Origin: Flavobacteriales bacterium
GTDB lineage: Bacteria > Bacteroidota > Bacteroidia > Flavobacteriales_D > UBA2798
Reading direction: 5' to 3'
Length of the DNA stretch: 64,000 bases
Assembly (NCBI GenBank): GCA_019694795.1
Contig: JAIBBF010000002.1
Coordinates: forward strand, 1-64,000
The translations under genes and the position numbers were made by a program. The notes beneath the pieces were generated by a model. The model was not told the origin of the DNA. It saw only the letters and a program-made list of their open reading frames with translations, and ran no database searches. Position 1 is the stretch's first letter, and each line of letters opens with the position of its first letter. This document shows positions 32,233 through 38,600 of this stretch, in pieces.

Positions 32233-33954
32233 TTATTTTAAAATTATTTTTTTTGTAAAAACTATACCATTCTGATCCGTAATTCTTAATAGGTAAATGC
32301 CCGGATTTAAACCGGATAATTCCAGATGAATTGTTTTGGAAGTTAAGAATTGCTTTGTTAAGCAATTTCTTCCCGTTACATCAAAAAGCTCAAGATTTAC
32401 TTCATTGAGTAATTCATTGAATTGAATGCTTACCTCATTGTCGGTTGGATTGGGCCAGATTTTAATTTTTAACTTATCATTTTCATCCAATCCGAGCGTG
32501 CTTGCTACTACACTCATCGAGGTAGTGTCCGAATCACCACATGCTTTGGCAATCATGGTAACTGTGTAGGTTCCCTGTGTTTGGTAATAATGTGAAATTA
32601 ACGTATCAGAGTGAATTCCAAAATATTCAACATCACCATCGCCCCAATTAATCTGCATACTGGTATAATACATCGTGTTGTTATCTAACACTACTTCAAA
32701 TCCGGGAAAACTAAATGGAATAAAGTCGGCTAATGGCGGATCCGCAAAACCTTCGCAATTGGTTTTAATTACAAAGATGTCCTGGCTACCTGTGTCGGGT
32801 GGACAAAGTCCTCCGCCATACAATTGATAAAAACCTGTAATAATAAAACCGCTATCATCAGGAACATAATTTAAAGAACCTCCGATATGAGCTCCGCAAC
32901 CTACACGACTTTCGCGTGACCAGAGAAGATTGCCACTATTGCCATCGTATTTTGATAAAACCACTTTAGGATTATTAGAAAACTGCCTACACACGTAGAA
33001 AGTGCTATCATCAACTTCTACAAGGTTTCGTGGCCATGCTATATCTTCAGCCGGCCCATGCTGATTTTCCCATATTAATTGATTTGTATAAGTAACTTTT
33101 CTAAAATACCACTCTCGCATAGGGTTCACGCCCGCCTGAATGGGTATGGGAGTATAGATCATTATTGTAGAGTCGCTCATAGCCTTTGCGACACAGCTAC
33201 CATTATCAGCATCATTTCTTCCAAAAGGATATATCCATTGCTGGTTGAATAAACTATCTGTTTTAATCACAATATCTTTATAATATCCGGGACCTAACGG
33301 ATGATAGTAAGATGAACTCCCTGCAATAACAAATCCACCATCATAAGTTTGATCGACACTGGCGCATCCTTGGTATTCATTGGGGAAAACGAAAGACTTA
33401 AAATTCAAGAGGTTTCCCAGTGTGTCAATTTTGAGTATCATTATCCCTCCGCTTGTTGGAACACTGTCAAGAACAAGGCCAAATATGACAAGGTTACTAT
33501 CTCTACACATTATCGCTCCCGAAACAAACGGTAATGTATCACTTCCAAATACGATGGTCTTTGTCCATAAGGTATCAAGATTTGCATTTAATCGAATGAT
33601 ATAAGGATCGTATCGGTTGCCACCACCGTTGGATCCTTTATGACAAACTGCAATAAATCCATTCTGTAAGGCAAACACTGATTTACATTCAATTAATTTA
33701 TTAGGTTCATTAATAATCAAAGAATCGATTTTATTACCAAACGGATCAATCTTCAAAAATGCAGCGCTATATTCATTGATCATGGGTGTTTTTATTGAGC
33801 CGTACAATAAATAACCATCCGGCAACAATAAATTGCCATAATTAAGTGCAAGATCATTGTGCTGGTATTCATACCTTCCTTTAAAATAAATGTGTTGTGC
33901 TACCACTTGAGCAGCACAACACATCAATGATATGAAAACGATTAATTTTCGCAT
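32233..33954 (-). CDS. T9SS substrate with PKD domain (tandem copy C)
   Basis: The 573-aa protein has a signal peptide (to VVAQ). Residues about 25-390 repeat phrases such as ILKIDTLGN, DGGFVIAG and VIKTNCEG, typical of beta-propeller-like Bacteroidota surface proteins. A PKD-like domain follows (about 395-480, INWGDGDVEYFG). The type A sorting domain begins KIWPNPTDNEVS and ends YLLRITDQNGIVFTKKIILK. The N-terminal block and PKD are nearly identical to copy B, but the middle differs and the sorting domain is unrelated in detail. It is the last gene of the tandem and starts one base within copy B's stop. Confidence 0.85.
   Translation of the reverse strand: MRKLIVFISLMCCAAQVVAQHIYFKGRYEYQHNDLALNYGNLLLPDGYLLYGSIKTPMINEYSAAFLKIDPFGNKIDSLIINEPNKLIECKSVFALQNGFIAVCHKGSNGGGNRYDPYIIRLNANLDTLWTKTIVFGSDTLPFVSGAIMCRDSNLVIFGLVLDSVPTSGGIMILKIDTLGNLLNFKSFVFPNEYQGCASVDQTYDGGFVIAGSSSYYHPLGPGYYKDIVIKTDSLFNQQWIYPFGRNDADNGSCVAKAMSDSTIMIYTPIPIQAGVNPMREWYFRKVTYTNQLIWENQHGPAEDIAWPRNLVEVDDSTFYVCRQFSNNPKVVLSKYDGNSGNLLWSRESRVGCGAHIGGSLNYVPDDSGFIITGFYQLYGGGLCPPDTGSQDIFVIKTNCEGFADPPLADFIPFSFPGFEVVLDNNTMYYTSMQINWGDGDVEYFGIHSDTLISHYYQTQGTYTVTMIAKACGDSDTTSMSVVASTLGLDENDKLKIKIWPNPTDNEVSIQFNELLNEVNLELFDVTGRNCLTKQFLTSKTIHLELSGLNPGIYLLRITDQNGIVFTKKIILK
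32450..32784. repeat. PKD-block repeat, copy C (partner 34171-34505)
   Basis: This block of about 335 bp is nearly identical to 34171-34505 at a constant offset of 1721 bp, with only scattered substitutions. It codes for the PKD domain and the linker to the sorting domain. Confidence 0.85.
33533..33954. repeat. N-terminal-block repeat, copy C (partner 35254-35675)
   Basis: This 422-bp block codes for the signal peptide and first 140 residues. It differs from 35254-35675 at only a few positions, while the flanking middle region has clearly diverged. Confidence 0.88.
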
Positions 33955-35675: not shown

Positions 35676-38600
35676 TAGTTTTTAATCAGCTTATTGAAAT
35701 ATTGTTTACCGTTACGTGTTGAAATAATCAAAAGGTAGACTCCACTTGGTAATTCATTCATGTTAAGCTTTGCATAATCTGCGTTACTATTGGATGTACT
35801 AAGAATAATTCTACCTGTAGCATCATATACTCTGATATCAAATTGAGCTTCAACAACAGGTAATTGAATATTAAGAATATCATCAGCAGGATTGGGCCAG
35901 ATGGTAAGCGATTTTTCCTGTTCTGTATCGGGAGACAAAAACACCATTGAACGGGCATTAGATGGGTTTACATATTCAAACAATTCTGGTTGACTAAATA
36001 TTTTTAATAATTCAAGAATAGAACCGGCGTTCTTACACTCAACTTTGTTATCATCAGCGGTGGCAATATCAATCATTTGTTGTTTCAAAGTAAGATCCCA
36101 ATTAAGACGAAATGCTTTGTCCTGACATTGATAAATAGTCATAAGAGATTCTAATAACTTCAGGTAATTCTCATAATCAGTAGTGATCGAACGAATGTTC
36201 GTAATAAGTGCAGTTGCACCGGAGAAATCACCCTTCATTATTTTAACACTTACACGTGTCAATTCATGTTCTATTGTAGGATCTGTCAATAGCAAAGTTT
36301 CAAGACTGTCTAGTGGATTTGAATAAATTGTATCGTTTTGATAACGGCGGAACAACTCATCAAAATCCATGTCCTTTTCAAACATACGCGATGAAATATC
36401 TGCAAATAATTCATCTCTTGCAGACGTACCTTTTTGCGCAGCTGTAATTTGACTACGAATACCTTTTGGGAGTGTTAACGTTTGAATCGCATCAAATACT
36501 TCAGGACTAAACGGAGCATTCGCCAATAATATGTCTTTTAAAATACCAGGAGGAAGGGATGGCGTTTTTTGAATTAAAGCCAATAAAACTTCATCGCTCA
36601 GATACGGTGAAGCGCCCATCAACAAATTTTTCAATTGTCCGGGTGCCATATTACTATTAATTGCAGCTAATAATCCCTGTGTATTTCCCGCATCAATAAG
36701 TTGAAGTAAAGCATCTATTTCCCCTTTAAGTGTGGACATACGCGTTATCAAAACTCCATTTGGGGTAGTTGTCGCATACAGGTCCGGACATACCGATTGT
36801 TTATCTGTATAGTTTGCAGTTCCACAAGGCGATTCAAAATATGGAAAGATAGACACATTCGCAGGTTCAATAATGCCAGGCGTACTATTTGTGGCCGGAA
36901 ATACATAGGTTGTTTGGTGAAACACATGTGTTGCATCGAGAGTAAAATGCAACAAAGGTGGAACCACCGGAGAAAAGGTATTGTTGGCGGGAGCCATATT
37001 CCTCAGGTTTTGAGGTGCAGAAGGGGCCAAACAACTTCCTTGCCCTGTGTGAATTCCCCCGCTGGTCACCTGTACATCTACTTGGTGTGAGTTATTAAAA
37101 TCATTACATAGATATTGAACACCAACATAAGTGCCATTGATATTATCTCCCCAATTTATCCTTGAAGCTGATGCAGAGTAATCCAGATTATTAAACGTAT
37201 TATTACGAATTTGATTATTGTTTTGACCTGAATTAACAGTAACTATTCCCAGCTTCCCGTTATTATGCGTTGTGAGATAATTGTCCTCGATAAAATAACC
37301 CGTACAGTTTGTTGTATGAATACCATAGGTCGTAAACATTCCTGAAGGATCGGGCACATCCGTCCCAATTTCAAAATTATTTTTCGCAATTGAGCCTCCT
37401 ACTATACCTACCATACGGATTCCTCTTGCATTATCTATAAAATCATTATACTCTATCACAGGATTCATTAGCGGCATTGCAGAACTTGCATCAATACCAT
37501 AAGCCAGATTTTCGAACAAATTTCCCTGACGATCTGATTCCGGGCAAGGTACGCCAATTGGAGGATTGGAATTACATTTCCAGGTTGCGTAAAATTTACT
37601 ATCAACACTATAAATTCCCGTACCGCGATCGGTTTGGTTAGCTTGTTGATTTACCTGATTGATAAACGTATTCCGATAAAATCTAACACCAGCAACTTGT
37701 ACCATTCCAATATGGTAAAGCGGATATGGTTTTAAATTATCTTTCAATTCGGCAAACGTTGTTTCAAACAAACAGTCAGTAAAAACAGATTTATTACTTT
37801 GAAGGCTAATGGTAAATGGAAATATACCGGAAAATGCAATTAATGGAGCAAAATCGACATCAATATAGTTATTTAAAAAATGTGAATTCGTTGCAACAAC
37901 CATACCCCCACTATGGGGAACAATAAAGTTATTATTTATGTCGCGAAGAGTGGTCGATATTCCATAATGTGCATTACTGATTTCTGAATTATTCAAAACT
38001 ACCACACCGTAATTTGAATTAACAGCAGCTGTGGAGTGAGCAATACCTGGAGTCCCCTGGATTTCTATACCATTCCACATAACTCCATGACAACCCACAC
38101 TTGTTAAGGTGCTATTGTTGATAGTAAGTTTAGCGCCTTTCTCAATGATAATTTTGCCATTTATTCCAAAATGAAAATTCATTCCGGAAATAATTATGCT
38201 TTTTCCTGTGGGAATTCTTAATTCGTCGCGAATAAAAATAATGCCGTTTTTATTTGAAAAAGGGTTGTTTCCATTAGTCCATGTTGCCGAAACAGATGCG
38301 GAATAAGAGAATTTATCATAAGAAATATTTTCACTGCAACATGATGGTGGTGACTCAATATCTGTAAAATAATATCCTCCGTCAACCTGATCATTCATTA
38401 AATAAATCCCATAATTTATGGTCGAATTGAGAGGTGCGCCACCCTGCGCTAAATTTAATGAGTTGATTGGAATGTTTAGATCAGGCTCGATAAATCCACT
38501 ATAGGGGTCGTTAGCATCGCTTAAGTATCCAAAACGGTTATTAGCTGCTAAATACATTTTTTTTCCAGGATAAAATAGTTCTATTTGAGAATGGGAAAAA

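Follow-up and report, generated by a model that had tools for sequence, protein, structure and literature searches.

How do two neighbouring genes come to share nearly identical ends around a clearly diverged middle, and how does one of them come to carry the sorting domain of a third gene whose body is unrelated? The question is raised by a locus in the 64,000-nucleotide stretch of a Flavobacteriales genome analysed here (the window; contig JAIBBF010000002.1), for which a preliminary description had proposed gene conversion or cassette shuffling, by which an exposed segment of T9SS surface proteins would vary and their secretion parts be reused. The genes concerned, in order of transcription, and the sorting domain in question are as follows.

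35675..39154, reverse strand: main open frame of gene A, 1159 aa, upstream partner in an operon with B and C
33954..35675, reverse strand: gene B, 573 aa, with a signal peptide-like N-terminus, predicted seven-bladed propeller, PKD-like region, and A-type sorting domain
32233..33954, reverse strand: gene C, 573 aa, laid out as B, with a sorting domain of its own type (that of a putative ancestral gene, X)
35684..35902, reverse strand: sorting domain of A, a domain match with 3 mismatches to the copy in B

B and C occupy 573 codons apiece and overlap from stop to start (TAATG), and the 3' end of A coincides with the start of B at 35675. Both B and C open with a signal peptide-like N-terminus, judged by eye (MRKLIVFISLMCCAAQVVAQ). 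The body of A is unrelated to theirs, as the preliminary description held in calling A an unrelated gene, but A also lies directly upstream of B in the operon that the genes share; its C-terminus is a T9SS type A sorting domain. By their C-terminal domains, all three proteins qualify as T9SS type A cargo, scoring 47.2 (A), 50.6 (B), and 50.8 bits (C) against TIGR04183, for which the curated cut-off is 23 bits, and more than 27 bits each against PF18962 (50.6 bits, above cut-off, in A); as T9SS sorting domains, those of A, B, and C are nothing unusual.

An AlphaFold model of B has a mean pLDDT of 74; most of its blocks within residues 41-300 exceed 80, and the PKD-like region (406-495) is not confidently modelled. 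We read residues 24-398 of this model as a propeller with seven blades. The top Foldseek match to this model is the propeller enzyme CylK, which indicates fold, not function; B and C are probably surface-exposed or secreted binding proteins. Elsewhere in the window, a direct repeat of 177 bp, 70.6% identical, lies among other T9SS genes (46396-46572 and 49838-50014). A tRNA-Leu gene stands upstream of A (39850-39933), but its 3'-end repeat is absent beyond C, and we rejected tRNA integration.

Anatomy of the repeat

Comparing each base with the base 1721 bp further on, we found that the resemblance of B and C belongs to one unbroken block of 1735 bp (32447-34181 versus 34168-35902), free of indels and held at this one offset throughout, as the preliminary description had noted of its offsets. 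The nearest mismatches outside the block stand at 32446 and 34182, and beyond these limits identity at offset 1721 is at background level. Because the block is 1735 bp long and the offset 1721 bp, its copies have 14 bp in common. This overlap, ATCTGGCCCAATCC on the coding strand, encodes IWPNP, with which the sorting domains of all three genes start. Over their whole lengths, A and C share no longer exact word, and none of the other words that they share reaches 13 bp.

35889..35902, reverse strand: crossover word ATCTGGCCCAATCC, A copy, upstream limit of the duplicated unit
34168..34181, reverse strand: crossover word ATCTGGCCCAATCC, B copy, novel joint at which the X body is fused to the A sorting domain
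32447..32460, reverse strand: crossover word ATCTGGCCCAATCC, C copy, downstream limit of the duplicated unit

A short word that recurs at either limit of the unit and at the novel joint is the mark of unequal crossing over, and the duplication step can be read straight from the anatomy of the locus. B is a chimera whose sorting domain originates from that of A, the near-identity noticed earlier (3 differing positions from WPNP to the stop) holding up on comparison. The exchange point does lie on the IWPNP codons, as the preliminary description had placed it, but such codons do not begin every type A sorting domain: those of this genome mostly start with [ILVF][YF]PNP, and among 73 strict motif matches the exact 14-bp spelling of IWPNP occurs in A, B, and C only.

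These features suggest the following history. The ancestor would have been a two-gene operon, A followed by X, and the product of X a secreted protein comprising a seven-bladed propeller, a PKD-like region, and a T9SS sorting domain. An unequal crossover between the 14-bp IWPNP words of A and X would have duplicated a 1721-bp unit, running from the sorting domain of A through the end of the PKD region of X, and the product would be A-B-C, with B made of the X body and the A sorting domain and C of the X body and X's own. A single crossover at the shared word necessarily gives B the sorting domain of A, so no separate exchange of tags is required. The continuous, indel-free repeat with the same 14-bp word at both ends supports the duplication, which we consider highly probable.

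Divergence along the copies

Within the repeat, B and C differ in tracts.

32447..32769, reverse strand: near-identical left flank, PKD-like region to IWPNP, differing from its partner (34168-34490) at 7 of 323 bp
32770..33532, reverse strand: middle of C, diverged from its partner in B (34491-35253) at 226 of 763 bp (30%)
33533..34181, reverse strand: near-identical right flank, B sorting domain and C N-terminus, differing from its partner (35254-35902) at 7 of 649 bp

The near-identical N-terminal and PKD blocks around a diverged middle are as first described (4/422, 7/323, and 226/763 nucleotides differing, the first of these counting from the start of B and C), and uniform divergence along the pair is excluded, since the longest identical run, 303 bp, would arise with a probability of ~6e-18 if mismatches were evenly spread. 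Synonymous divergence steps sharply on both sides of the middle—dS is near saturation at ~1.8 (1.78) over codons ~141-393, versus 0.04 in the N-terminus, 0.06 in the PKD region, and 0.05 between the A and B sorting domains. Mismatch rates in the two flanks are alike (7/323 versus 7/649, Fisher p = 0.25), and the flanks and the A/B sorting domain appear, from these substitution counts, to share one low age. Sharp tracts with a more than 10-fold contrast in synonymous divergence bespeak recombination between copies, and to this extent the earlier proposal of gene conversion stands.

With dS of ~1.8 in the middle against 0.04-0.06 in the flanks, the middle requires a second recombination. This event may have swapped ~760 bp in one copy for the equivalent from a diverged form of the gene, with another strain or a paralogue since lost as the most likely source. 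In the AlphaFold model of B, the tract comprises blades 3-7 and begins with the opening strand of blade 3. Protein and DNA searches of the organism's own genome, as well as searches of GTDB genome contigs, where only one metagenome-assembled genome (MAG) came close, and of viral contigs, found no donor of the middle. The two middles have GC contents of 0.385 and 0.406, and their composition is not foreign.

The middle is under purifying selection. Its dN is 0.21, giving a dN/dS of ~0.12 with dS near saturation, and changes fall equally on predicted strands (44/157) and loops (27/95; Fisher p = 1); neither measure gives any sign of diversifying selection there. The equality of strands and loops leaves antigenic diversification of exposed loops unsupported. 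Since the middles have diverged under purifying selection, we think it likelier that B and C are a pair of retained variants than that they form a switching antigen system.

Related loci and the rest of the genome

B and C are absent from the one other genome of the genus that we examined (n = 1), and another relative compared within the family is ~41% identical; neither supplies a donor for the middle. The MAG mentioned above (G002; contig CAMBFX010000001.1) belongs to a sister genus of the same family and has the gene order A2-X1-[160-aa A 3' fragment]-X2, with a start-stop overlap between A2 and X1. The A2-X1 order supports an A-X ancestor, and the arrangement records a separate duplication of the A 3' end together with X, with breakpoints that differ from those of A-B-C. 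The 160-aa fragment (L048, 9747-10229) is a duplication relic that persists as an open frame between the two copies of X. X1 and X2 are at or beyond synonymous saturation (middle dS >2) except in the PKD region (0.45) and the sorting-domain part (0.70), whereas in the middle it is X1 and X3, the latter from a separate contig, that are nearest to each other (dS ~0.75, with 0.69 in their PKD region). Because these patterns are discordant, they indicate, at the level of sequence, that X paralogues have recombined in a second genus and that the PKD region was a recombined part. Another A-like gene followed by a propeller-like gene lies at 10873-15191 of G002 contig C58, and the order, A then propeller, seems to be repeated among paralogues in this MAG. 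Since A2 is a single 1331-aa frame, gene A of the window is either frame-disrupted or affected by an assembly error; the break lies at 39154-39573, where a 136-aa frame with a signal-like N-terminus (39573-39163) ends just ahead of the 1159-aa frame in which the protein carries on.

A second tandem pair, on contig C5 of the same genome (L161, 1513-4721), comprises two 499-aa propeller-like T9SS cargo genes. Here the two genes agree at every one of 699 bp in the middle (dS 0, with 148 synonymous sites), the ends are diverged (dS 0.4-1.7), and so are the sorting domains. The assignment of ends to copies rests on a short-read-like assembly, but the identity of the 699-bp tract does not depend on it; the tract is clearly one of gene conversion, placed opposite to the pattern of B and C. 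This reversal implies that conversion in these arrays is not directed towards a variable middle between preserved secretion parts. A 59-bp direct repeat, made up of a tRNA-Asp 3' end and terminator (L161, 866-924 and 4837-4895), flanks ~4 kb in which the tandem propeller pair lies together with a GIY-YIG frame and fragments of sorting domains; the arrangement resembles an island without a visible integrase. The events in C5 and G002 parallel those at A-B-C, and duplication and gene conversion are recurrent in tandem T9SS cargo genes of this family.

Across the genome, sorting domains gave 117 matches, and we compared the sequence around nearly all of them, all against all. Only those of A and B are near-identical, long stretches of high DNA similarity join tandem neighbours only, and the sole case of near-identity between loci is an overlap of contig ends. 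There is no sign of widespread tag swapping. The search for the same blocks elsewhere that the preliminary description had proposed found neither B/C-like blocks nor near-identical sorting domains in the genome outside A-B-C, and no block has a second copy there that could form part of a reservoir of alternative cassettes. The assembly is a draft of 124 contigs; the overlapping ends (L195, 1-127, and L227, 2055-2181) share exactly 127 bp, which suggests short-read assembly with k = 127.

Competing histories and their meaning

Tandem duplication at the sorting-domain word, followed by replacement of one middle from a diverged allele or paralogue, is the overall history that we favour, with moderate confidence. 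It shares its duplication step with a rival in which the duplication, at the same 14-bp word, is old, and gene conversion between B and C kept the ends alike—the N-terminus with the preceding sorting domain on one side, the PKD region on the other—as the middle drifted. Such conversion within a locus is seen in the same genome at the C5 pair, the PKD region is the recombined part in the related G002 genes, and an external donor, of which none was found, would be unnecessary. Against it, homogenisation requires two or more tracts, alike in age (mismatches 7/323 and 7/649; p = 0.25) and each running exactly to an end of homology; we regard it as possible but rather doubtful. Replacement is preferred to homogenised flanks because all flanks have one age, although the missing donor, the unremarkable base composition of the middle, and the comparison of one genome of the species count against it.

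We consider it very improbable that the locus is an assembly artefact, in which strain variants of one gene were laid out in tandem or a repeat was mis-resolved. A draft whose contig ends share 127 bp, as in short-read k-mer assembly, and a repeat with a 303-bp exact run would allow for this, but 14 scattered flank differences set the copies apart, a k-mer join would need more than the 14 bp on which the X body and the A sorting domain meet, and a comparable duplication arose independently in G002, with another tandem pair on C5. At least as remote is a dedicated or selected system of cassette shuffling that varies the exposed segment and reuses secretion parts. It would account for the block pattern and for a joint exactly at the sorting-domain start, and T9SS cargo of Porphyromonas gingivalis is reported to be diversified by domain rearrangement and allelic exchange (PMC5266723); however, the genome has no cassette reservoir, dN/dS is ~0.12 without bias towards loops, the C5 pair is opposite in pattern, and the sorting domain shared by A and B is a by-product of a single duplication. 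The shuffling half of the earlier proposal is not supported, and the purpose attached to it, varying an exposed segment, is likewise unsupported (dN 0.21, dS 1.78; Fisher p = 1; C5 opposite). The processes at work are ordinary duplication and recombination, with no dedicated shuffling system.

In its head-to-tail unit, identical limit word, chimeric middle gene, and sharp tracts, A-B-C resembles other tandem duplications produced by unequal crossing over and gene conversion, and it is a real, well-defined feature and an instructive new example of a known process. It differs from the general case in that the word encodes the start of a T9SS sorting domain and that the tag was swapped between unrelated proteins with the frame intact. 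Within the open-licence literature, we found nothing closer for tandem duplication involving T9SS sorting domains than the work on P. gingivalis, where domain rearrangement and allelic exchange affect T9SS surface proteins, including the adhesin domains of gingipains (PMC5266723). Both cases concern T9SS-exported proteins of Bacteroidota made mosaic through recombination, but the P. gingivalis variants were compared between strains, whereas A, B, and C are adjacent genes of one genome, joined at the sorting domain and without sign of antigenic selection. The locus offers a base-resolved example of a protein gaining the T9SS sorting domain of an unrelated gene via crossover at a 14-bp word. That sorting-domain start codons are a recurrent recombination joint, handing secretion tags to new bodies, we think improbable; if it were true, B would be a move of the sorting domain from A to X caught in the act, and such a joint, of which this is so far one case, would if general help account for the spread of T9SS tags.
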